A DNA stretch of 64,000 nt from Pelagibacterium sp. (GTDB lineage Bacteria > Pseudomonadota > Alphaproteobacteria > Rhizobiales > Devosiaceae). Position 1 is the stretch's first letter. Each line of letters begins with the position of its first letter. Below, piece after piece: positions 18,211 through 53,748 of this stretch. The notes beneath the pieces are model-generated. The model made no database searches. It was not told where the DNA came from and saw nothing but the letters and a program-made list of their open reading frames with translations. The stretch is from the NCBI GenBank assembly GCA_002723255.1, contig PBNW01000031.1:1-64000 (forward strand). Direction: 5' to 3'. The translations under genes were made by a program, and so were the position numbers.

Positions 18211-18251
18211 GGTCCCGCCCCGCCCGCGTGTGGCCTAGATTTTTATTTCAT

Positions 18252-18301
18252 CGCGCGTCCGAACCGATAAAATGGAATCCACTTTGTCCGGACACGCTCT
18301 A
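18252..18301. repeat. Palindromic intergenic element, copy 3 (partial)
   Basis: Read on the minus strand it runs TAGAGCGTGTCCGGACAAAG, TGGATTCC, then GGTTCGGACGCGCG, the same order as copy 4 but shorter. It fills much of the 88-bp gap between the FeuN-like gene and feuP, and its first TAG (18299-18301) is the stop codon of the FeuN-like gene. Confidence 0.75.
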
Positions 18302-18679: not shown

Positions 18680-19429
18680 CTAGCCTTTGCCAAGTTCTGT
18701 CTTGAGCCCGCGCCGCAGGAAGATGATCGCAAGCGCCTCCATCACCATCTGCGGCCCCGAATATTCGCCCAACATGGCAATGTCGATGCCAAAGCTCTGG
18801 GCGATGCCGACAACCAGCATCAGCGCGCCCACGATATAGGTCTTGTAGCCCTCGAAAATCGTCATCTCGTTGATATCCTTTTCGGTTTGAGATGGAGGTT
18901 GCAGCGTGACGGCCGACAGTGCCGTGGCCCGAATATCGCTGACGAGGCTGGTCCAGCCGCGCCCGAAACTGGCCCAATTGGCCAGCCTTTGAAGAAATCC
19001 CATGCGCTGGTCGCACAGCGCTTCGATCAGCGCGCGCGTGTCGCGCTTTCCAACCGCCGCGAGCGTTAGCGGCCCCACGAACCCGTCCTGCACCACGCCC
19101 ACCAGCGCCTGCAGCACCCGCACCGCCCGATCGGGTCCGGAATTGACACCATAATCGGACACCGCAAGGTCCAGTCCCACCGGAAGCGAGCCCGCCTTGC
19201 AGCGCTCCCAGTACAGCGCCTTGTAGATCGCCGCGGCCTCGGCCCGCTCCAGCGCCCGGACCTCCGATTTCGGCAGATCCCACCACGGATCGATGCCGCG
19301 CCATCGGGCGAGCGTCTTGTGGGTGATCCCCATATTGGTCGCCCCACCGGGATCGGAGGGATGGTCGGCATAACCGCCCTCGTGCTCCAGAATCTTGGCA
19401 AGGCAAAGCGTCCAGCGCGAAGCCGGCAT
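18680..19429 (-). CDS. GH108-type phage/GTA endolysin fused to a holin-like membrane tail
   Basis: 249 residues. Residues about 10-75 form a glycoside hydrolase 108 domain with the catalytic Glu in LEHEGGYADHPSDPGGATNM; residues about 100-160 contain a peptidoglycan-binding 3 region (VVQDGFVGPLTLAAVG). After a linker, residues about 190-249 start MTIFEGYKTYIVGALMLVVG and carry a hydrophobic helix and an amphipathic C-terminus, like small phage membrane proteins that are usually separate genes. It lies next to the GTA remnant, whose lysis gene it probably was. Confidence 0.82.
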   Translation of the reverse strand: MPASRWTLCLAKILEHEGGYADHPSDPGGATNMGITHKTLARWRGIDPWWDLPKSEVRALERAEAAAIYKALYWERCKAGSLPVGLDLAVSDYGVNSGPDRAVRVLQALVGVVQDGFVGPLTLAAVGKRDTRALIEALCDQRMGFLQRLANWASFGRGWTSLVSDIRATALSAVTLQPPSQTEKDINEMTIFEGYKTYIVGALMLVVGIAQSFGIDIAMLGEYSGPQMVMEALAIIFLRRGLKTELGKG

Positions 19430-19484
19430 ATTGCTTCTCCCTTTTGAATCAAAAATTGGACAAAGCCCCGCCTAACCCACGCCC

Positions 19485-19583
19485 GTCACCCCGGCCTTGA
19501 GCCGGGGCCCAGTACAGTCTGCGTATGAGACAGAACCACCAAGGCTGCCGGTCACTGGGTCCCGGGCCTTCGCCCGGGATGAC
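19485..19583. repeat. Second short repeat family, copy A
   Basis: GTCACCCCGGCCTTGAGCCG GGGCCCAGTAC ... ACTGGGTCCCGGGCCTTCGC CCGGGATGAC: two GC-rich hairpins around a variable centre of about 30 bp. The outer parts match copy B at 21781-21876 in inverted orientation. It lies between the endolysin gene and the fused GTA tail gene, in a 200-bp gap that holds nothing else visible. Confidence 0.8.
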
Positions 19584-19629
19584 GCTGGAGAAGAGGAAGC
19601 TCAGGGGGCTTTTCCGCGCCCCGTGAAAA

Positions 19630-20685
19630 TCAGCCGTTGCTGGAAAACGAAAGTTCGATCCAGTCGCTGCCGCGCCGCACCAGCATGAGCGCGTCCTCGA
19701 AAGCATCGAGAACCCGGTTGCCGCCCAGCTTGAGATTGCCGGTCCCGTCGCGGAAGGTCAGCGCATTGCCCGCCGTTCCCGTGACGATCAGCACGGCGCC
19801 ATCGAACCCGCCGTCAATGCTATCGATATCGTCAGTCGTCCCGCTTTGAGGTGCCGGAACCACATAGCCGCTCTCAGCCGCCAGAACGCCTCCGGCAATC
19901 GTGGGAAAGCTCACTGCGCACCCCGCAAAGCTTGAGAACCGCACAAACCCGGTCGCGCCCTCCAAACGCATCGCAGATTTGAAATCGGCCCCGTCATCGG
20001 AGACCTTGAAGGTGAAATCATCGTCCCCCGCCAGCCCGATCTCAGCTCGCCCAGACCAGCCCGACTGGAAGATCAACGTCGCGCTGTCGGCCGCGCCTTA
20101 CCGACCACGACGTGACGCTGGGGTTCGGGGAGACCGAATTTGCGCCTGCGCATGGGCTCGATGGCGGGGAGATTGTGCAAAAGCTCGGCGCGCAGACCGA
20201 GACCGCCGAGGTGCTTGGCGTGCTCCATTCCGAGGCGATCAGCGAGGATGACATTGCGCTGGGCCGCTATGATGGCGCGCGGGTTCAAAGCTGGCGGGTG
20301 AACTGGCGGGCTCTCGAACAGCGCGAGCTGATCCGGACCGATACAATCGGCGAGATTACCCGCGAGGACGGGGTGTTCCGGGCCGAATTGCGCTCGGGCC
20401 AGCACGCGATGAACGTGCCGCGCGGGCGGCTCTATCAGCATATGTGCGACGCGCGACTGGGGGTCGGAACGGAGCCCGACGCGACCAACCGGCTGGCCGT
20501 GCGCTCCGAAGCGGCGCTGTTTACTGCCATCCCCGATGCGGAAGGCGGCAACGGCAATGTGCGGCTGACGCTGAACAAGGAAAGCCCAGCGTCACCCCAT
20601 CGGTGCGCTCAATCCGCCAACACCAGCACAGCGTTGTCGCCCCGCTCGCGATATGGGTGGCAAAATCGTCGCCAAACTGTCTCAT
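19630..20685 (-). pseudogene. GTA tail fusion: gp13 (DUF2163) N-terminus joined to DUF2793 C-terminus, broken by an inversion
   Basis: The start on the minus strand at 20685 reads MRQFGDDFATHIASGATTLC...DGVTLGF, the N-terminus of the DUF2163/BR0599 hub protein. It then breaks: the next expected part (TDHDVTLGFGETEF...GRLYQHMCDARLG) is on the plus strand at 20100-20580. That plus segment runs on into DATNRLAVRSEAALF...VRLTLNK, which is DUF2793, and DUF2793 resumes on the minus strand at 20099 (GAADSATLIFQSGWSGRAEI) to the stop at 19630. Flipping 20100-20580 restores one open 351-residue frame. So a deletion first fused the two genes in frame near 20460, and an inversion then split the product. 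Confidence 0.85.
20100..20580 (+). other. 481-bp inverted segment inside the GTA tail fusion gene
   Basis: Codes on the plus strand for TDHDVTLGFGETEFAPAHGL through LTLNK while both flanks read on the minus strand. Breakpoints at 20099/20100 and 20580/20581 are set by restoration of the family motif LGF-TDHD at one end and NKE-GAADSATL at the other. Short AAGG/CCTT sequences sit at the two breakpoints. Confidence 0.85.
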
Positions 20686-20848
20686 TCGCCAATCACCTCG
20701 ATCAGGGGGATGGCGGGCGCAACGGCCGCGTCGAACCCCGACATCTCGACATCGAGCCTGTCGGTATCGAACCGCACCGGCACGTCGAATTGGAACCCCG
20801 CCGTCACCACCGCGCCCGCGTCCGGCGCCTCAGCCAGGTCGCGTTCTG
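20682..20848 (-). pseudogene. C-terminal fragment of GTA gp12 (DUF2460)
   Basis: About 54 residues (DLAEAPDAGAVVTAGFQFDV, PVRFDTDRLDVEMSGFDAAV, APAIPLIEVIGE) that match the end of the DUF2460 distal tail family. The stop overlaps the gp13 ATG (ATGA), the native gp12-gp13 coupling. Upstream the frame runs straight into the capsid gene, so the first three quarters of gp12 are gone. Confidence 0.82.
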
Positions 20849-21727
20849 GCGATAGCCGGCCTTGAGCGCATAGACCAGATCGACCAGCGCGTCGGCCGGA
20901 TCATTGGCGTCGAACCCGGCATCCGCCCCCGTCGAAATGGTACCCAGCTTTTCCCAGGCCCAGCTCGCCTCATCGACAGTATCGGCGTCGAGAAAGCCCG
21001 AGGGCTTGTTGACCCCATCGCCGAGAATGAACGCCGTCGTTTCCTGCTCGGCGAAGGCGGCATTGACCTCCTCGGCAATCCACTGGCCCACATCGACCGC
21101 CGCATCGTCGAGAAACGCCTGGGTCGCCGCCGGCATGGCGTAAAGCTCGGTCGTGGGAAATGTCAGCTCGTCGATCACCTGGGAATTGGTCTGGGTGCGC
21201 GCCGCCGTCTCCCCGACCCAGCCCACCTGAGGCCCCGTGACCGTGATGGGCTTTTTATAGACCGAGGAAGACACCTGCCGCACGCCGCAGATGGCCCGCA
21301 TGGGCGAAATCGCGGTCAGGAGCTTGGTGATTTCGGTTTCGGTTTCCCCGGGCACCAGATAGCCGCCATCGGGGTTCGAGCCGATCGAAAGCGCCTTTTC
21401 CTCGCCGCGCTTCACATAGGCGGAAAACGCGTCCTTGTACTCATCGCTCGCAACCGCCCGGCCCCCCTCGAGCGCCGGACGGGCCTTGTCCACCGCCGCC
21501 TTGTCGAGCGCCGATTTGTGCCCGTCGAGCACCGCATTGAGCCGATCAAGCTTGCCTTCGAGCAGCGTATCGGCGGACCCACGTTTTTCCAGTTCGCCCA
21601 GCCGCTGGTCGTTGGTCGATTTGAACTCCTCGAATGCGGTCATGAAATCGGCGAACGGGGCATCCACATCCCCAGCCGGAAGCGCCGCCACCTTGGTCTC
21701 AAGGCGCGGTTCGATAGATTTGGTCAT
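20804..21727 (-). CDS. GTA/HK97-type major capsid protein, C-terminus deleted
   Basis: 307 codons. An N-terminal coiled-coil scaffold region (ADFMTAFEEFKSTNDQRLGE) leads into the HK97-fold shell domain (GGYLVPGETETEITKLLTAI, KPITVTGPQVGWVGETAART, DVGQWIAEEVNAAFAEQE, PSGFLDA). The RcGTA gp5 family is about 400 residues and continues after ALKAGYRQNATW; here that point, near 20846, is joined to gp12 sequence and the frame ends with a short foreign tail (LRRRTRARW). About 90-100 residues of the shell are missing, so a normal capsid is unlikely. The prohead protease gene lies upstream, separated by repeat copy B. Confidence 0.88.
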   Translation of the reverse strand: MTKSIEPRLETKVAALPAGDVDAPFADFMTAFEEFKSTNDQRLGELEKRGSADTLLEGKLDRLNAVLDGHKSALDKAAVDKARPALEGGRAVASDEYKDAFSAYVKRGEEKALSIGSNPDGGYLVPGETETEITKLLTAISPMRAICGVRQVSSSVYKKPITVTGPQVGWVGETAARTQTNSQVIDELTFPTTELYAMPAATQAFLDDAAVDVGQWIAEEVNAAFAEQETTAFILGDGVNKPSGFLDADTVDEASWAWEKLGTISTGADAGFDANDPADALVDLVYALKAGYRQNATWLRRRTRARW

Positions 21728-21780
21728 CAGTTTTCCCTTGTTGATATTGCGTGGGGTCGCAGCCCTGCCTCCCCACCACT

Positions 21781-21876
21781 GTCATCCCGGGCGAAGACCC
21801 GGGATCCAGTATCCTCACGCGCTCATGGTCCTCACCGGCATTGAGCGTACTGGGCCCCGGCTCATGGCCGGGGTGA
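21781..21876. repeat. Second short repeat family, copy B
   Basis: GTCATCCCGGGCGAAGACCC GGGATCCAGTAT ... GTACTGGGCCCCGGCTCATG GCCGGGGTGAC. Reverse complement of copy A in its outer parts, with a different centre. It lies in the 171-bp gap between the prohead protease and capsid genes. Confidence 0.8.
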
Positions 21877-21898
21877 CTCCTGGAGCAGACGCAAAGCC

Positions 21899-22387
21899 CT
21901 ACGACGTCATCAGTCGCGCCGCCGCGCCAAGCGTTGCGGCCAGTTTGGCGTTGCCGCCCGGCCCGGAGCCAATCCGCGCCGCCTCCATCATCGGAAAGGT
22001 GACGATGGAAATTTCCCAAAGATCCACGGCCCACAATCGCCGCGTCCCCGTCCTGCCCTCGCGGGTGGCCCGCACGGCCCGAAACCCGATGGAAAGCCCG
22101 TCGATGGCCCGCTGTGAGATCAGCGCCCTAAGGCTCGCCGCGCGCGGCACCCCCTCGAGCAGCCGCCCAGACACCTTGAGTCCGAACCCGTCCTCGGCAA
22201 TCTCGTCCCACAGCCCGATGGGTTCCTTGGGATCGTGCTGAAACAACAGCCGCACCCGGCTCGCGCCGCGCGATTTCAGCGTGTCGCGAAACGCGCCAGG
22301 CATCACGATATCCCCGCCCCCGTCGAGCCGCCCGAACACCGAGGCGTAGCCCGAAAACCGCCCATCGGCGTCAATCGCAACGCTCAT
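21899..22387 (-). CDS. GTA/HK97-type prohead protease
   Basis: 162 residues, similar to RcGTA gp4 and the HK97 prohead protease family. The start (MSVAIDADGRFSGYASVFGR), FQHDPKEPIGLWDEI with the likely catalytic His, and SQRAIDGLSIGFRA with the likely Ser region are in family order. It would process capsid N-terminal scaffold during head maturation. Its ATG overlaps the stop of the 45-residue gene upstream by 4 bp, so translation is coupled. Confidence 0.88.
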   Translation of the reverse strand: MSVAIDADGRFSGYASVFGRLDGGGDIVMPGAFRDTLKSRGASRVRLLFQHDPKEPIGLWDEIAEDGFGLKVSGRLLEGVPRAASLRALISQRAIDGLSIGFRAVRATREGRTGTRRLWAVDLWEISIVTFPMMEAARIGSGPGGNAKLAATLGAAARLMTS

Positions 22388-22521
22388 CTGGCGCTCTCCG
22401 GCTTGCCTCTTGCCGATTTGGTCGGCCGTTTGGCCAGCGATCCCGCCAGGTTCCAGGCAAACTGGCGAAACACCTGCGTGGCTTCTCCCGGATTGCTCTT
22501 TGCGGTCTTTTTTGTCCCCAT
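22384..22521 (-). CDS. 45-residue basic protein of the GTA cluster
   Basis: Starts MGTKKTAKSNPGEATQVFRQ, Lys/Arg-rich, ends RPTKSARGKPESAR. Overlaps the upstream 62-residue gene (TGATG) and the downstream protease gene (ATGA), which supports translation. Position between portal and protease corresponds to the small g3.5-type genes of RcGTA. No function is recognised. Confidence 0.6.
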   Translation of the reverse strand: MGTKKTAKSNPGEATQVFRQFAWNLAGSLAKRPTKSARGKPESAR

Positions 22522-22709
22522 CAGTCCTTGTCCCTGAACAGTTTGTTGAGGTGGGCGATTTCGGTCACGAAGGTGTTGAAGCGCCGATTGGCCGCCGAAA
22601 GCTCCTTGAGCAGCGTAAACACCGCCACGCTCGCCCCGCCCGCCCACAAAAACAGCGCCACATGCGCCAGATCCCCCTTGGCGAGCACCGTCGAAATGAT
22701 CGCGTCCAT
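22521..22709 (-). CDS. 62-residue membrane protein of the GTA cluster
   Basis: Starts MDAIISTVLAKGDLAHVALF at the ATG 22709, preceded by AAAGGGACGGAA. One hydrophobic helix (VALFLWAGGASVAVFTLL) is followed by a charged helix (KELSAANRRFNTFVTEIAHL). Located 19 bp after the portal gene and coupled to the next gene. It resembles the small unnamed genes found after the portal gene in rhizobial GTA clusters. Confidence 0.65.
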   Translation of the reverse strand: MDAIISTVLAKGDLAHVALFLWAGGASVAVFTLLKELSAANRRFNTFVTEIAHLNKLFRDKD

Positions 22710-22728
22710 TTCCGTCCCTTTCTGGCGT

Positions 22729-23895
22729 CTAGGCCTTCGCCCCGAACCCCAACAGCTCCCGCTTCTCCGCATCGCTCAAGAACGACGCATTCCCCACCCG
22801 CTCCCAGTCCATCGCCCGATCGGCGGCCAGCGCCTCGATGCCGTCGAAATCGGGCACCAGTTCCACCCCGCCGAACCCCGGCGCGAGCCAATGGGTCAGC
22901 GATCCCACAACCGCCCGCACCAGCGGAATGACCGTCTGCCGCCAGAGCGCCCGGCTGGCCTCGGCGTAGTTCGCGTAAGTGTTGTCCCCCGGAATCCCCA
23001 GCAGCATGGGCGGCACGCCGAAGGCCAGCGCGATCTCGCGCGCCGCCGCGTTCTTGGCGTCGAGAAAGTCCATTTCCGCCGGGGTCAGCGCCATGGCCTT
23101 CCAGTCCAGGCCGCCTTCGAGCACCATGGGCCGCCCGGCGTTGATCGCCCCGGCAAACCCCTCCTCGAGCTCGGATTTGAGCCTTTGGTACTGATCCTCG
23201 GTCAGATTGCCCGCCGCCGCGTTGTAAACCAGCGCCCCCGAAGGCCGCGCCGCGTTTTCCAGCAAGGCCCGGTTCCAGGCGGTCGCCGCGTTGTGCGTCT
23301 CAAGGCTCCCCTGTGCCACCTGCAACGGCGCCTGCCCGTAATGATCGTCGAGCGGATCGAACAGGGTAAGATGCAAAACCCGCCCCACTGGCCCGGTATC
23401 GAGCATCAGCTTGTGGGTCCGCCCACCCGCCGTATAGGCATAGCCGATCGGCCAGCCATCCTTGCCCGCAATCACCGCCATGCGGTCGGGCCGCAATCCG
23501 TAAAGCCCCTTGACCTGCCCCTCGACGATCGCCGCGTCGAGATAGGCATTTCCGGCCAGTTGCAGATAGGAAAAGACGCTTTCGAGCAGCGCCTTGCCGT
23601 CCTGGCGCGGATTGGGGCGTCCGAGCAGGGCAAGCAGCGGATGCTCGCTCAGCACCTTGTCGCCATCGCGCACCTCGAGCGGCACCCTTGCCGCGTTTTC
23701 CGCCACCATGCGCACACAGCGATAGACAATGGGGTTTTTCGCGAACCCCTCATTGGCCAGCGCCGCAAATCCCTTCTTGCCGCTCCCGCCAATCCCCAGC
23801 GGCGCCAGCTGAAACAGCGTCTGCGGCGCCGCCGATTTGTGTTCAGCGCCCACACGCGATCGCCCGCCCACAAGGCGCCCCAGCCAATCGGCCAT
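22729..23895 (-). CDS. GTA/HK97-type portal protein
   Basis: 388 residues, close in length to RcGTA gp3. Conserved stretches include PLLALLGRPNPRQDGKALLE, SYLQLAGNAYLDA, AAREIALAFGVPPMLLGIPG and NTYANYAEASRALWRQTVIP, typical of phage portal families. I prefer the ATG at 23895 (MADWLGRLVGG), which has AAGGATGGG upstream, over an in-frame ATG at 23946. The protein forms the DNA-entry ring of the head. A conserved motif lies 72-92 bp upstream. Confidence 0.9.
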   Translation of the reverse strand: MADWLGRLVGGRSRVGAEHKSAAPQTLFQLAPLGIGGSGKKGFAALANEGFAKNPIVYRCVRMVAENAARVPLEVRDGDKVLSEHPLLALLGRPNPRQDGKALLESVFSYLQLAGNAYLDAAIVEGQVKGLYGLRPDRMAVIAGKDGWPIGYAYTAGGRTHKLMLDTGPVGRVLHLTLFDPLDDHYGQAPLQVAQGSLETHNAATAWNRALLENAARPSGALVYNAAAGNLTEDQYQRLKSELEEGFAGAINAGRPMVLEGGLDWKAMALTPAEMDFLDAKNAAAREIALAFGVPPMLLGIPGDNTYANYAEASRALWRQTVIPLVRAVVGSLTHWLAPGFGGVELVPDFDGIEALAADRAMDWERVGNASFLSDAEKRELLGFGAKA

Positions 23896-23966
23896 CGTCC
23901 CATCCTTTTTGATTGTTGCTGGAGATCGCCGCAGCATCTCCATCATGGCTGAACCTTACCCCACCA

Positions 23967-23987
23967 GCGTGACGCGGGGATAAGTCC
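23967..23987 (-). promoter_or_regulatory. GTA motif copy 2, upstream of the portal gene
   Basis: GGACTTATCCCCGCGTCACGC on the minus strand (split here as GGACTTATCC + CCGCGTCACGC), identical over 21 bp to 25853-25873. Both copies are followed after 5-6 nt by a second shared element, GGTAAGGTT here and GGTTAGGTT at the other copy. Each lies upstream of a GTA structural gene on the same strand, which suggests a promoter or operator. Confidence 0.6.
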
Positions 23988-23995
23988 CAAAAAAA

Positions 23996-25300
23996 TCAAA
24001 CCCGCACCCTTGGCACCGGCCCATCGCGCAGCAGCAATTCGGTCACCGCCCACACCAGCGCATCGAGCCGGTCGGGCGAATGGCCCTCGGCCAGACCGTC
24101 CGGCCCGAAGGCGCACAATTCGTCCTCGAGCTCGGCAAACATGCCCGCATGTTTGACCCGCCCCTGCGCATAAAGCGCGGCGACCGGTTCGGCGCGCACC
24201 CATTTGCCGCGATTGGCCCGCGCTTCGCGCACCGGCACGCTGGCATCGACCTGCTGCATGAGATTTTTCACCAGATCGCCGCCCTGGTTCACCTCTGCCA
24301 GGATCGTATCGGCATCGAACTCGTGAAACGCGGCAATCGCCACGCGCGCCCAGCCGACAGGGGTCACGCCCTGCACCGTCCGGTCGGCCAAAACCACCGC
24401 ATTCTGCCCGGATCGGCCTGCAACGATGATCCCGCAGGCGTCCGAATTCTTGCCCCCGGTCACTGGCGGATCGACCGCCACCACGATCCGGGTCAACCCC
24501 GGCACATCGGCAATCCGCCCCGCTTCGATCTGGCTGCGGTTCCACAGCGCACCGGGCACCTCCTCGACCATCTCGCCATCGAGTTCCTGCCGTCCGAGCA
24601 CCGTTTCATTGTATCGCGCCACGATCGCTTCGAGAAACGCCGGCGCCAGATTGTCCCGGTTGGCCTTCGTTTTCATTCGCGTCACTACCGTATTGGGGTC
24701 CGTCATCAGGCGTTTTAAAAGCCGTGTCGGTTTGGGCGTCGTGGTCACCAACTGGCGTGGCCGCGTGCCGATCCGCAGCCCGAATTGCAGCATGTCCCAT
24801 GCCGCCTCCGCCTTGGGCCATTTGGCCAGCTCGTCGCACCATGCAGCGGCAAATTGCGGTCCGCGAAACCGTTCGGGATCGTTGGCCGGCATCAACCAGG
24901 CTTCCGCCCCATTGGGCCAGACGACAATTCCGCGCGCCTTGTCCAGCCTTGGCCGCTCGGACACCGGGTACACCGAAACGATCCCCGAAACCCCTTCCAC
25001 CATAATGGCGCGCGCCTCGTGCATGGTTTCGCCCACCAACGCGATGGGCGAAACCGGACGCCTGCCCGAAACCAGTTCGCGCACCCATTCGGCCCCGGCC
25101 CGCGTCTTGCCCGCGCCGCGCCCACCGAGCATGAGCCAGGTCGTCCAATCGCCCTCCGGCGCCCGTTGCATCGGGTGGCCCCAAAGGTCCCAGCAGATCT
25201 TGAAATTTTCGAGATCGGAGGCTTCGAGTACCTGCGCGCGCCGCATCATCTCGGCCTTGCGCGCCCTGGTCAGAGGCGGCAGATCAATCTTCGGTTTCAA
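23996..25300 (-). CDS. GTA large terminase subunit
   Basis: 434-residue DNA-packaging ATPase/nuclease like RcGTA gp2 and the Terminase_6 family. Walker A is LMLGGRGAGKTRAGAEWV (about residues 56-73), Walker B AAAWCDEL (about 150), and the C-terminal nuclease carries Asp residues in IVVAVDPPVTGGKNSD and PDRLDALVWAVTEL. The length is complete with no frame break. The start overlaps the small terminase gene by 17 bp. Confidence 0.93.
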   Translation of the reverse strand: MKPKIDLPPLTRARKAEMMRRAQVLEASDLENFKICWDLWGHPMQRAPEGDWTTWLMLGGRGAGKTRAGAEWVRELVSGRRPVSPIALVGETMHEARAIMVEGVSGIVSVYPVSERPRLDKARGIVVWPNGAEAWLMPANDPERFRGPQFAAAWCDELAKWPKAEAAWDMLQFGLRIGTRPRQLVTTTPKPTRLLKRLMTDPNTVVTRMKTKANRDNLAPAFLEAIVARYNETVLGRQELDGEMVEEVPGALWNRSQIEAGRIADVPGLTRIVVAVDPPVTGGKNSDACGIIVAGRSGQNAVVLADRTVQGVTPVGWARVAIAAFHEFDADTILAEVNQGGDLVKNLMQQVDASVPVREARANRGKWVRAEPVAALYAQGRVKHAGMFAELEDELCAFGPDGLAEGHSPDRLDALVWAVTELLLRDGPVPRVRV

Positions 25301-25724
25301 GCTTTGAAATCCGGTCGACCAGGCGCTCGCGAATGGCTTCGAGTTCGGGGTCCATGCGCACCCGCTTTTTCACCACTTTCTTTTCCGCCGCTTCCAGCGC
25401 CGTGATCTTGTCGAGCGCCTTGGTCATGGATTCAAGCATGCGCATTTCGGTTGCACTCATGGGTTCCTCTAAAAGTTTGCGTTCGAGTTGGGTGATCTGG
25501 GCCTCGATCAGCCCGAGCATGCGGGCCAGAAGGCTCTGGCGCCGCTGCCGGCCCACTCCGGGCTTGCGCAGCACCCAGTGCTCCTTGCGGCGTCTTGTGT
25601 TGAGCCGGTTGAGCGTCAGCCCGTGGGCGGCAGCGATCTGGACTATGGGCGTGTCGGTGTCCTCATACTCCGCCCGCACGGCATCCCAGTCCGGCTCCAC
25701 CGTTCCGCTCATCGCCCGATCCAT
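25284..25724 (-). CDS. GTA small terminase-like protein (gp1)
   Basis: 146 residues from the ATG at 25724 (MDRAMSG); an ATG at 25712 is an equal alternative and a longer frame reaches 25829. An N-terminal helix-turn-helix-like region (EYEDTDTPIVQIAAAHGLTL, NRLNTRRRKEHW) is followed by long charged helices (LIEAQITQLERKLLEEPMSA), as in small terminase subunits that bind DNA and assemble rings. It overlaps the large terminase gene, as in other GTA clusters. Confidence 0.75.
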   Translation of the reverse strand: MDRAMSGTVEPDWDAVRAEYEDTDTPIVQIAAAHGLTLNRLNTRRRKEHWVLRKPGVGRQRRQSLLARMLGLIEAQITQLERKLLEEPMSATEMRMLESMTKALDKITALEAAEKKVVKKRVRMDPELEAIRERLVDRISKLETED

Positions 25725-25852
25725 CGCTGTCGTGAAAAAGGTCCGGTGAGACCCCGCGCCCCAGAGCACCGTGGAGGGGCCGCTGCTCTCGAGTGCGACC
25801 AAACACGATCGCGTCCGCAGTAATCTCACCGTGCCACAAACCTAACCGGGAT

Positions 25853-25873
25853 GCGTGACGCGGGGATAAGTCC
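25853..25873 (-). promoter_or_regulatory. GTA motif copy 1, upstream of the small terminase gene
   Basis: Identical 21-bp sequence to 23967-23987, 129 bp upstream of the gp1 start, followed by GGTTAGGTT after 5 nt. Candidate start of the GTA operon. Confidence 0.6.
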
Positions 25874-37560: not shown

Positions 37561-38055
37561 CTATTTGAACGGCGCAAGGGGGGCCATTATTTCGGCCCTG
37601 GTGCTCGGATCGTCCCAATCCACCGCCCCCTGCCGCCGAAACACGATCTCCCCGCCGCCATCGACAACGAATGTGCTCGGATAGCCCAGTATCCCCAGCA
37701 CGCTACCCACATTGCCCTCGATCTGCTGGTGGCTCTCCAGCCCCACCCCGAGATCGCCGAGATAATCGGTGATCCGCTCATACCCGGCGGTATCGACCGA
37801 AACCACCACCAGGTCCCCCGGCTCCAGCCCCTGCGCAAAGGCATCGAGTTGCGGCAATTCCTCAAGGCATGGCGCGCACCACGTCGCCCAGAAATGGATG
37901 ATCGTCGGCCCGTCAACCAGATCGCCCAGCGCCGCCGTCTCCCCCGCCGCGTCGCGCACCGTGACCGCCGAAAGATCGACGCCCGTCTCCTGTCCCGCGG
38001 CAGGCCCCGGGACGACCAGCAAAGTTGCGGCAAGGCAGAAACCGGCGAGTCTCAT
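37561..38055 (-). CDS. TlpA-like periplasmic thioredoxin-fold protein
   Basis: 164 residues: a signal peptide (MRLAGFCLAATLLVVPGPAA), then a TlpA/ResA-type fold with the redox motif in IIHFWATWCAPCLEELPQLD and the conserved cis-Pro region GYPSTFVVDGGGEIVFR. It probably reduces disulfides in periplasmic metalloproteins or apocytochromes. Its start overlaps the antitoxin gene stop by 4 bp, an unusual pairing that may mean read-through expression from the toxin-antitoxin promoter. Confidence 0.88.
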   Translation of the reverse strand: MRLAGFCLAATLLVVPGPAAGQETGVDLSAVTVRDAAGETAALGDLVDGPTIIHFWATWCAPCLEELPQLDAFAQGLEPGDLVVVSVDTAGYERITDYLGDLGVGLESHQQIEGNVGSVLGILGYPSTFVVDGGGEIVFRRQGAVDWDDPSTRAEIMAPLAPFK

Positions 38056-38348
38056 GCTGCAGACTTGAATCCGAGACGCAGCCCCAGCGCATGGGCAATT
38101 TTTACAATCGTGGCAAAGCTGGGATTTCCATCCTCTGAAAGCGCTTTGTAGAGTCCCTCACGGCTCATTCCGGCATCGCGCGCCAGCTGGCTCATATTTC
38201 GGGCGCGGGCGATCGTTCCAAGCGCCTGCGCGATAAAGGCAGGGTCGTCGTCGCCTTCTTCCATCACCGCTTCGAGATAAGCGATGATGTCCTCATCACT
38301 CTTGAGATAATCTGCCGTATCGTAGCGGCTGAATGTTTCGTTGTTCAT
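38052..38348 (-). CDS. HigA-like antitoxin (addiction-module antidote, HTH)
   Basis: 98 residues from ATG 38348 (MNNETFSRYDTADYLKSDED). A helix-turn-helix of the probable addiction module antidote family is visible in QALGTIARARNMSQLARDAG, MSREGLYKALSEDGNPSFAT, ending with VKIAHALGLRLGF. It follows the toxin gene by 4 bp in toxin-first order. It should neutralise the toxin and repress the shared promoter at the palindrome near 38679. Confidence 0.88.
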   Translation of the reverse strand: MNNETFSRYDTADYLKSDEDIIAYLEAVMEEGDDDPAFIAQALGTIARARNMSQLARDAGMSREGLYKALSEDGNPSFATIVKIAHALGLRLGFKSAA

Positions 38349-38352
38349 CGTT

Positions 38353-38649
38353 TCAATCCTTCCACTGCGCGGCAATTTCCCTGGCCCGGACGATATCGGC
38401 TTTCTGCGAAGACTTGTCGCCACCTGAAAGCAGAATGACAACGACCGGTCCTTTTTGCATGTAGTAAACGCGGAAGCCCGGACCATAATCGATCCGCATT
38501 TCGGAAATCCCGCCGCCGACGGGTTTGACGTCACCGGGATTCCCGTTCGCAAGCCGATCCAGCCTTGCCAGAATGCGCGCCATGGCCCGTCTGTCACGCA
38601 GATCATGCAGCCAATTGTCAAATACGGCACTCTTTATCAGCGCGATCAT
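38353..38649 (-). CDS. RelE/HigB-type toxin (addiction-module killer protein)
   Basis: 98 residues, start MIALIKSAVFDNWLHDLRDR. Family hallmarks: ARILARLDRLANGNPGDVKP, VGGGISEMRIDYGPGFRVYY, VILLSGGDKSSQKADI. These toxins are usually ribosome-dependent mRNA interferases. The ATG lies only 6 nt after a good -10 hexamer, so the transcript is likely leaderless. Confidence 0.9.
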   Translation of the reverse strand: MIALIKSAVFDNWLHDLRDRRAMARILARLDRLANGNPGDVKPVGGGISEMRIDYGPGFRVYYMQKGPVVVILLSGGDKSSQKADIVRAREIAAQWKD

Positions 38650-38655
38650 ATGTTA

Positions 38656-38696
38656 ACTGTAGTTATCACCTTGGAGTGTGTCAACCATGGTTGACA
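38656..38696 (-). promoter_or_regulatory. Toxin-antitoxin promoter with palindromic operator
   Basis: Minus-strand -35 TTGACA (38684-38679), exact 17-nt spacer, -10 TACAGT (38661-38656). The -35 is one half of a perfect 18-bp palindrome TGTCAACCATGGTTGACA (38679-38696), a likely antitoxin-binding site that would block RNA polymerase. Confidence 0.82.
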
Positions 38697-38790
38697 GAAG
38701 CAGCCGGCGTGCCAATGCGTCGCGACGCCCAAGTGACACACACGCCCATCGGCGCTATGTCGGGGACACGACGCGACCGAAGGCTTTGTC

Positions 38791-46462: not shown

Positions 46463-46569
46463 CTAGAGCGTGTCCAGCAAAAGTGGAAACGGTTTTGCGG
46501 TTCGGACACGCGATAAAACAAGGGTTTAGAGCAAAGGATTTGAGTCAATCAAATCCTGAACGGCTCTAG
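46463..46569. repeat. Palindromic intergenic element, copy 4 (most complete, 107 bp)
   Basis: CTAG-bounded. First part: GAGCGTGTCCAGCAAAAGTG ... GCGGTTCGGACACGCGATAA (arms CGTGTCC/GGACACG). Second part: AGGATTTGAGTCAATCAAAT CC with arms GGATTTGA/TCAAATCC, and GAGC..GCTC ends. Its reverse complement matches copy 1; copies 2 and 3 match its first part. It sits between the MarR and SCO genes. Confidence 0.88.
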
Positions 46570-52461: not shown

Positions 52462-53447
52462 ACCCACGCTACTGGCCGCTGATCGCCACCATCACCATTT
52501 TCGTCCTCGCCTATGGGCTGGCCGTCATGCAGTTCCCGGCGCTGTTTTCCACGCGCGTTCTGGGCAATCTCCTGACCGACAACGCCTTTCTCGGCGTCGC
52601 TGCGGTCGGCATGACCTTCGTCATTTTGTCGGGCGGCATCGATCTGTCGGTGGGCTCGGTCATCGCCTTTTCCTCGGTGCTGATCGCGGTGCTGGTCACC
52701 CAGCTCGGCATCCACCCCCTGCCCGCCTTCGCCATAACGCTCTTGGCCACCACCCTGTTCGGCGCGTCGATGGGCGCCATGATCCATTATCTGGAAGTCC
52801 CGCCCTTCATCGTCACCCTGGCCGGCATGTTCCTGGCGCGCGGGCTGACGTTCCTGCTCACCCAGGATTCGATCTCGGTCAGCCATGATTTCTACACCTG
52901 GGTGCGCCAGTTCTATTACGTCATGCCCGGCGGCGGGCGCCTCACCTTCAATGGCGGGCTGATGCTTTTGGTCTTTGCCATCGGCATCGTGGTCTGCCAC
53001 CGCACCCGGTTCGGCGCTTACGTCTACGCTCTGGGCGGCAATGCCCAGTCCGCCGCCCTGCTCGGTGTTCCCGTGGCCCGCACAACCATTGGCATCTATG
53101 CCGTTTCGAGCTTTCTCGCCGGGCTCTCTGGCGTGGTCTATTCGCTCTACACGTCCTCGGGCTACCCGCTGGCCGCCGTCGGTGTCGAACTCGATACCAT
53201 CGCCGCCGTGGTCATCGGCGGCACGCTGCTCTCGGGCGGGTTCGGGTTCATGCTCGGCTCGCTCGTCGGCGTCTTCATCCAGGGGATGATCCAGACCTAC
53301 ATCGTTTTCGACGGGACGCTCTCGAGCTGGTGGACCAAGATCGTCATCGGCGGATTGCTGTTCGGCTTTATCGTCCTCCAGCGCGTCATCATCGCCGCCT
53401 CCAAACGCGACTGGCGCAAAAAGAAGGTGGAGGCCGTTCGGGCCTGA
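52458..53447 (+). CDS. yjfF: Galactofuranose-type ABC transporter permease
   Basis: 329 residues, second permease of the YtfQRT-YjfF system. Family stretches: VGMTFVILSGGIDLSVGSVI, YVYALGGNAQSAALLGVPVA and VVIGGTLLSGGFGFMLGSLV. Ends in a basic tail (KRDWRKKKVEAVRA). Last gene of the transporter operon; it converges with the GNAT gene 10 bp away. Confidence 0.92.
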   Translation: MNPRYWPLIATITIFVLAYGLAVMQFPALFSTRVLGNLLTDNAFLGVAAVGMTFVILSGGIDLSVGSVIAFSSVLIAVLVTQLGIHPLPAFAITLLATTLFGASMGAMIHYLEVPPFIVTLAGMFLARGLTFLLTQDSISVSHDFYTWVRQFYYVMPGGGRLTFNGGLMLLVFAIGIVVCHRTRFGAYVYALGGNAQSAALLGVPVARTTIGIYAVSSFLAGLSGVVYSLYTSSGYPLAAVGVELDTIAAVVIGGTLLSGGFGFMLGSLVGVFIQGMIQTYIVFDGTLSSWWTKIVIGGLLFGFIVLQRVIIAASKRDWRKKKVEAVRA

Positions 53448-53457
53448 ATTGAAATGC

Positions 53458-53748
53458 CTACCCCCGCACCACATCCTGCCATTCGGGGTGGCGTTCGATC
53501 TGTGCCTTGGCGAACGGGCACAGCGGGATGATCTTGACCCCCTCGGCGCGCGCGTCCTCGATGCCGCGCAGCACCAGCGCCTCGCCCACCCCGCGTCCCC
53601 GCAGGGCATCGGGCACGCCGGTATGGTCGATGATCCGCTGGCGCGTGCCCACCATGGTATAGGTCATCTCCGCTTCATGCCCGTCGATGCGGACCACATA
53701 GCGCCCCTTGCCCTCACCATCCTCGCGCTCGATGGAAAAGTCGCTCAT
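53458..53748 (-). CDS. Small GNAT acetyltransferase (YjdJ-like, DUF4442/Acetyltransf_CG type)
   Basis: 96 residues, a minimal GNAT fold: AEMTYTMVGTRQRIIDHTGV, PDALRGRGVGEALVLRGIED with the acetyl-CoA loop RGRGVG, and IIPLCPFAKAQIERHPEW with the conserved Cys-Pro. This short type (YjdJ/GTLF3B-like) acetylates unknown small or protein targets. Confidence 0.85.
   Translation of the reverse strand: MSDFSIEREDGEGKGRYVVRIDGHEAEMTYTMVGTRQRIIDHTGVPDALRGRGVGEALVLRGIEDARAEGVKIIPLCPFAKAQIERHPEWQDVVRG

Follow-up and report, generated by a model that had tools for sequence, protein, structure and literature searches.

The stretch of DNA analysed here (the window, G000:C31:1-64000, that is, 64,000 nucleotides of a 68 kb contig from a draft Pelagibacterium genome of 3.02 Mb in 80 contigs, 84.4% complete) carries what we read, with a probability of about 0.87, as a chromosomal gene transfer agent (GTA) cluster of the RcGTA type that was inactivated in this one Pelagibacterium strain. 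The cluster is broken by two deletions at short microhomologies and one reciprocal inversion of 0.49 kb, all of them absent from G061, a genome listed as the same species. With the C-terminal quarter of the capsid and nearly all tail genes lost, no particle could presumably be made; g1-g4 and the endolysin would be passive leftovers that have so far escaped erosion, and the loss may have been either neutral or favoured, since producers die by lysis. The window adds a new and unusually well-resolved case to the known decay of GTAs and is ordinary in kind.

The minus strand holds g1, g2, g3 and g3.5, a tiny open reading frame (ORF) and g4, followed by the larger part of g5, by scraps of g12, g13 and DUF2793 and finally by a GH108 endolysin. 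Together with the junctions discussed below, the features are:

25284..25724, minus strand: g1, small terminase; intact, with the start at 25724 or 25712
23996..25300, minus strand: g2, large terminase; intact, 434 aa; Terminase_6N 9.9e-32, Terminase_6C 4.7e-23
22729..23946, minus strand: g3, portal; intact; Phage_portal 3.3e-84, portal_HK97; homologues start at about 23895
22521..22709, minus strand: g3.5-like small gene; intact; 72.6% to the G006 homologue
22384..22521, minus strand: second tiny ORF of about 45 aa, with a similar one in the same position in G006 (ORF lists, by eye)
21899..22387, minus strand: g4, prohead protease; intact; Peptidase_S78 3.5e-29
20804..21727, minus strand: g5, major capsid; truncated, covering Phage_capsid positions 1-174 of 280
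20830-20832, minus strand: junction of deletion 1; 4.6 kb lost, from the end of g5 through g6-g11 into the start of g12; microhomology of 3 bp (TCA, plus strand)
20682..20829, minus strand: C-terminal scrap of g12, codons ~161-211
20581..20685, minus strand: N-terminal scrap of g13, codons 1-35
20100..20582 (alternatively about 20100-20591), plus strand: inverted piece of 0.49 kb; g13 codons 36-181, then DUF2793 codons ~119-163
20458-20463, plus strand: junction of deletion 2; 5.0 kb lost (end of g13, g14, g15, start of DUF2793); 6 bp microhomology, TGGGGG
19633..20094, minus strand: C-terminal scrap of DUF2793, codons ~161-314
18680..19429, minus strand: GH108 endolysin; intact, 249 aa; Glyco_hydro_108 2.6e-27, PG_binding_3 1.4e-8

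The homologues of g1 to g5 all lie on one strand and in the same order as in RcGTA of Rhodobacter capsulatus (the g-numbers follow what we take to be the RcGTA gene order), as judged from profile matches and, for g1, from a weak match to the PHROG terminase small subunit (E 0.0024) and identity to relatives (43% to g1 of G006). The best protein identity of each piece lies between 43 and 81%, and the pieces stand in syntenic order, which excludes a chance resemblance; the portal is 75-81% identical to those of four Pelagibacterium records. The likeness to RcGTA is also seen in relatives, the intact capsid of G008 matching the RcGTA capsid Rcc01687 (6tb9) with E 9.1e-87 and g15 of G006 carrying GTA_TIM, Phage-tail_3 and Rcc01698_C. 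Unlike RcGTA, the genus Pelagibacterium has DUF2793 and GH108 genes after g15, and the window lacks g6-g11, g14, g15 and most of g12, with g13 and DUF2793 reduced to scraps.

An original prediction for this locus had described a cluster in g1-g5 order with the head genes kept and an endolysin remaining, which the ORFs, the profile matches and the relatives bear out. It had also described g6-g11, most of g12, g14 and g15 as gone and the fragments as joined end to end; this is indeed what we found, the joined stretch including the inverted piece. Parts of g5, g12, g13 and DUF2793 are missing as well, and the tail genes g6-g15 are represented at the cluster by scraps of g12 and g13 only. The capsid gene keeps 299 of the 408 native codons relative to G061 (codons 1-307 of 414 in the numbering of the references G003 and G006); the 109 C-terminal codons are lost, and the remnant ends in a frameshifted, aberrant tail of 8 residues followed by a stop. 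By gene content, with no full-length capsid, the locus would not be a functional GTA; in PMC10883770, 14 of 17 head-tail genes were required.

Intact relatives and breakpoints

In G061, g1-g15 are full open frames, and G008, from the same genus, has a complete and entirely intact cluster. Placing the pieces of the window on these two genomes, as the original prediction had proposed to do with relatives keeping a full GTA, identifies its cluster as the orthologous locus: G061 is colinear on both sides of the cluster and G008 on the endolysin side only. Among the complete clusters examined to their end, genus relatives carry g1 to g15 and, beyond these, DUF2793 and the endolysin; the whole spans about 15 kb. 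The two deletions and the inversion are present in the window strain and absent in G061. The inversion is reciprocal, with 2-3 bp of inverted microhomology at its ends (by eye from the G061 alignment); its reciprocal breakpoints make chained template switching or an amplification chimera unlikely.

The loss appears to be recent, because G061 is intact at g1-g15 and colinearity with it extends over most of the 68 kb contig (96.6-99.1% identity in long matches outside the cluster); this part of the original prediction stands. The g1-g4 proteins are 98-100% identical to those of G061 (g1 identical across the compared stretch, g2 99.3%), and the endolysin 97.6%. G061 in turn carries two insertions relative to the window contig, one in DUF2793 and one at 46565.

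Substitutions between the window and G061 were polarised with G008 as the outgroup and summed over genes. From g1 to the truncated g5, 35 synonymous and 3 non-synonymous changes fall on the window lineage, 39 and 5 on that of G061; for the broken g5 alone, the counts are 7 and 1 in the window and 8 and 1 in G061. The scraps gave, in the window lineage, 1.5 synonymous and 2.5 non-synonymous changes for g12, 0 and 0 for g13, and 7 and 3 for DUF2793, and are too short for a verdict. The comparison of non-synonymous and synonymous rates (dN/dS) in g1-g4, also put forward in the original prediction, thus reveals no relaxed selection; as the truncated capsid gene is as constrained as the intact one, most of the divergence would predate the deletion, and the low dN/dS tells of recency, not of function.

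A few side observations concern this neighbourhood. The DUF2793 gene of G061 (L034/L036) holds an insertion of about 1.66 kb, with a 3 bp overlap, opposite window 19992-19994, probably an insertion sequence. Just upstream of g1 (window 25760 onward), G008 ceases to be similar while G061 stays colinear: the g1-side flank varies between species of the genus. Two stretches of about 100 bp in spacers of the cluster (window 19468-19599 and 21781-21877) match other places of G061 at 74-80% and look like dispersed repeats. In G007 (L016, P. luteolum), g5 lies in three frames and g10.1 has a stop; these may be pseudogenes or sequencing errors.

Losses across the family

We searched 136 genomes of the family for g15 and for the capsid at E 1e-10, a GTA-type capsid being a match of about 61-100% identity (the remaining matches were at 49% or less). 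Both genes, or pieces of both, were found in 95 genomes; 4 have the capsid without g15 (G000, G005, G036, G131), in 23, g15 or a piece of it stands without a GTA-type capsid, and both are absent from 14, G012 among these still having g1-g3.5. Several assemblies in this tally are fragmented (G031, G036, G106, G110, G112, G119, G120, G139). With 4 genomes against 23, loss of the capsid is no rarer than loss of g15; a packaging and head part that outlasts the tail, as the original prediction read this locus, is not supported as a rule. In G010, of the same genus, most of g3 to g11 is gone and g12-g15 are kept, codon 120 of g3 being joined to g12.

We examined 23 eroded loci (G000, G005, G009, G010, G011, G012, G026, G032, G066, G070, G073, G079, G084, G091, G097, G104, G106, G112, G113, G129, G130, G131, G136), not counting as eroded G092 (stops in g14 and g15), G115 (g5 in two frames), G120 (beginning inside g15 at a contig end), or G007 and G002 (g5 in several frames). 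The endolysin is unbroken in 17 of the 22 whose contig reaches it (G073 ends before); only a C-terminal piece is left in G005 and G012, it is split over two frames in G066 and G106, and it has a stop in G136. Likewise, g1 was found in 20 of the 22 loci where it could be seen (partial in G005, with one stop in G070; G112 starts inside g2), the exceptions being G106, with an N-terminal piece only, and G136, with none. This retention of the cluster ends is partly a matter of ascertainment, because wholly lost clusters are absent from the list. The putative regulator DUF6456, GafA-type according to PMC9638019, occurs in 27 of 28 genomes irrespective of the condition of their clusters; being near-universal, it is uninformative on that condition.

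Other losses within the genus are those of G005 (from g6 codon 68 to endolysin codon 217), G010 and G009/G011 (a fusion described below). The sister genomes G130 and G131 (L062, L063), 95-96% identical around the locus, differ in their GTA deletion, which runs from early g4 to g15 codon 298 in G130 and from g5 to the endolysin in G131. The junctions of the window recur in none of the other eroded loci examined, and its loss is apparently one of many independent losses in the family. The situation resembles the pseudogenised or lost alphaproteobacterial clusters discussed in PMC10883770, in that relatives keep the GTA and a lineage loses it; unlike those cases, the loss in the window is resolved to breakpoints within one species.

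Such losses could be those of cheaters, an idea stated for pseudogenised GTA clusters in PMC10883770: a deletion would be favoured as it stops lytic GTA production while the cell still receives DNA. This refinement of our reading is plausible, though we hold it somewhat less probable than its opposite. That losses recur at scattered points of the family tree, with different deletions even in the sisters G130 and G131, speaks for it; however, neutral loss through a deletion bias would lead to the same pattern, the basis here being sequence and not fitness, and the endolysin, the lytic part, is mostly unbroken in the eroded loci. Why GTAs persist despite the death of producers is an open question, and the same-species pair of an intact and a broken cluster (G061 and the window strain), like G130/G131, would let the cost or benefit of a GTA be measured directly.

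Other accounts of the locus

Several points weigh against an inactivation in this strain as we read it. The junctions rest on a single draft assembly, without reads; colinearity with G061 is imperfect, window 38014-38727 and 18238-18298 having no match there; g1-g4 without relaxed selection and an intact endolysin are also compatible with retention for use; and the search of the assembly with g6-g11 DNA of G008, which found no match, had no positive control and covers a genome that is 84% complete.

The strain's cluster might in fact be intact and the draft pieces misjoined, an assembly artefact to which we give a small chance. The fragmentation of the draft favours it, as does the failure to find an rpoB-domain match in the assembly. 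Assemblers work with words far longer than 3-6 bp, and the junction overlaps are just 3 and 6 bp, with an inversion that is reciprocal; the rest of the 68 kb contig shows only insertions and short unmatched stretches relative to G061 (such as window 53444-53458), with no other inversion or deletion join; and no other contig yielded the missing genes, with the limit just given for g6-g11. Window 38014-38727 is in itself a segment of about 0.7 kb without counterpart in an otherwise colinear G061.

A second, complete GTA cluster elsewhere, which the original prediction had named as a fact that would overturn it, was not found in the 84%-complete assembly: neither g15 nor g6-g11 DNA gave a copy elsewhere in it, the g15 DNA of G008 giving only a stray match of 50 bp (an unassembled copy being possible). 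The sole other Phage_capsid match (C58:4376-5188) sits among ORFs unlike the GTA set and is 35% identical to the GTA capsid; the region is taken as a probable prophage. As an observation in its own right, this prophage-like region (L003, G000:C58:1-20000) has an HK97-type capsid. Nor does the cluster of the window look like a prophage remnant, for which a patchy presence and a variable place would be expected: portal matches of at least 47% identity occur in 51 of 61 genomes (its own included), with weaker ones only in 4, and the G061 cluster lies at the same place.

Least probable of all, and in our view very unlikely, is the tail-less, repurposed module that the original prediction had also envisaged, in which terminase, portal, protease and capsid are kept for a new use: g1-g4 are open and conserved, with a strong purifying signal in both lineages, but the capsid is short of 109 of 408 codons with a frameshifted end, the broken capsid gene is equally low in non-synonymous rate, and the junctions are unmatched in the other eroded loci examined.

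A recurrent terminase-g15 fusion in relatives

The part likely to surprise a specialist, and more interesting than the window itself, is a fusion found in relatives. In 9 of the 136 family genomes (G009, G011, G066, G070, G073, G084, G104, G112, G113; loci L066, L072, L067, L073, L074, L075, L076, L077, L078), g2 to codon ~151 is joined in frame to g15 from codon ~605. The result is a single open frame. Counted from the first start codon, it is 777-798 aa long in the 7 complete cases; G073 and G112 are cut by contig ends, and G009 and G011, 99.9% identical over 13 kb, are counted once. On the g2 side, the join falls right after what we take to be the Walker B residues, and on the g15 side in the TIM-barrel domain. 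The 2 hybrids tested with Pfam (G070, G113) show Terminase_6N, the last part of GTA_TIM, Phage-tail_3 and Rcc01698_C. The hybrid lies between g1 and the endolysin, and about 11-14 kb are missing relative to the intact relatives named next. Such a relative matches both flanks in G084 (G127), G113 (G102) and G104 (G135, 67-77% identity), and one flank in G009 (endolysin side, G008) and G073 (g1 side, G126; its contig stops within g15); for G066 and G070 the comparison was with one another only, and G112 was left out. By title, we found no GTA study of Pelagibacterium and none naming a terminase-g15 fusion, which is no proof of absence.

In an rpoB tree of 25 genomes, in which some nodes are weak (0.66 for that of G104) and G112 and G011 have no rpoB match, the junction occurs in six separate places: G009, G104, G066 with G070, G073, G084 and G113. 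The same fusion thus apparently arose from at least six separate deletions, as far as sequence comparison can tell. Spread by transfer of one deletion allele is not supported, as most fused alleles are nearest to non-fused genomes (a few of them otherwise eroded) beside the junction. Upstream (g2 codons 125-151), the nearest sequence is non-fused for 8 of 8 distinct fused alleles; downstream (g15 codons 616-640), this holds for 5 of 8 (G009, G112, G113, G084, G073), with a tie for G066 and G070 and a fused nearest sequence for G104. G066 and G070 are counted as one origin because they are often mutually nearest further downstream. The codon after the junction is TTG in G009, like that of G008, and ATC in G073, like that of G126, and so tracks the lineage in these two; in G084 it does not clearly do so. 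For G113, a contig (L129) intact from g9 to the endolysin is 95.6% identical over the C-terminal half of g15. Among the matches listed from a sample of 249 genomes of the order, G084 is the only fusion; seven of these matches align well past the junction, in frames of 476-498 aa, the size of an ordinary terminase. A suspected fusion in a viral contig (L217) proved on inspection to be an ordinary cluster.

Microhomology is not sufficient as the cause: g2 and g15 match over 3-6 bp at the junction in 8 intact relatives (which are not the actual ancestors), and 4,767-127,227 pairs of g2 and g15 positions match equally. One codon pair chosen repeatedly among thousands of equal sites would mean that the hybrid, a terminase ATPase half with the C-terminal half of g15, was selected, either for a new function or for blocking GTA production. 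We regard such selection as a tentative idea, with the odds against it. The recurrence may instead reflect selection to keep translation of the endolysin coupled, or some unknown hot spot; the stop of the fusion overlaps the endolysin start by 8 bp in all 6 loci checked (G079, G129, G104, G070, G113, G084). If the hybrid is selected, the wreck in the window would be another outcome of the same pressure, and the fusion would show a repeatable way of dismantling a domesticated virus into a new gene.

Conservation of the hybrid was looked at in both halves. As to a possible relaxation of selection in the terminase half, parsimony counts looked raised in G009, G113 and G084 and not in G073 and G129, with synonymous sites near saturation and intact pairs variable there too. 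Of 35 positions invariant in intact genomes, 0-1 are changed in the fused g2 half (0 of 14 in G112), as compared with 0-2 of 35-37 in intact genomes; in the fused g15 half, 0-1 of 67-78 such positions are changed. With L130 as the outgroup, changes number about 23 synonymous and 6 non-synonymous on the G113 branch and 14 and 7 on that of L129. The short G113 branch indicates that some fusions are young, and the conserved positions are no proof of function.

Other joins onto g15 are found as well. In G079 and G129 (L060, L061), the same g2 site is joined in frame to g15 codon ~80, and in G106 (L079, minus strand) the N-terminal piece of g1 is joined in frame to g15 from codon ~753. Altogether, 6 of the 7 distinct junctions onto g15 are in frame (the two recurrent ones and those of G130, G091, G026 and G106; not that of G097), and G032 keeps a separate small g15 frame.

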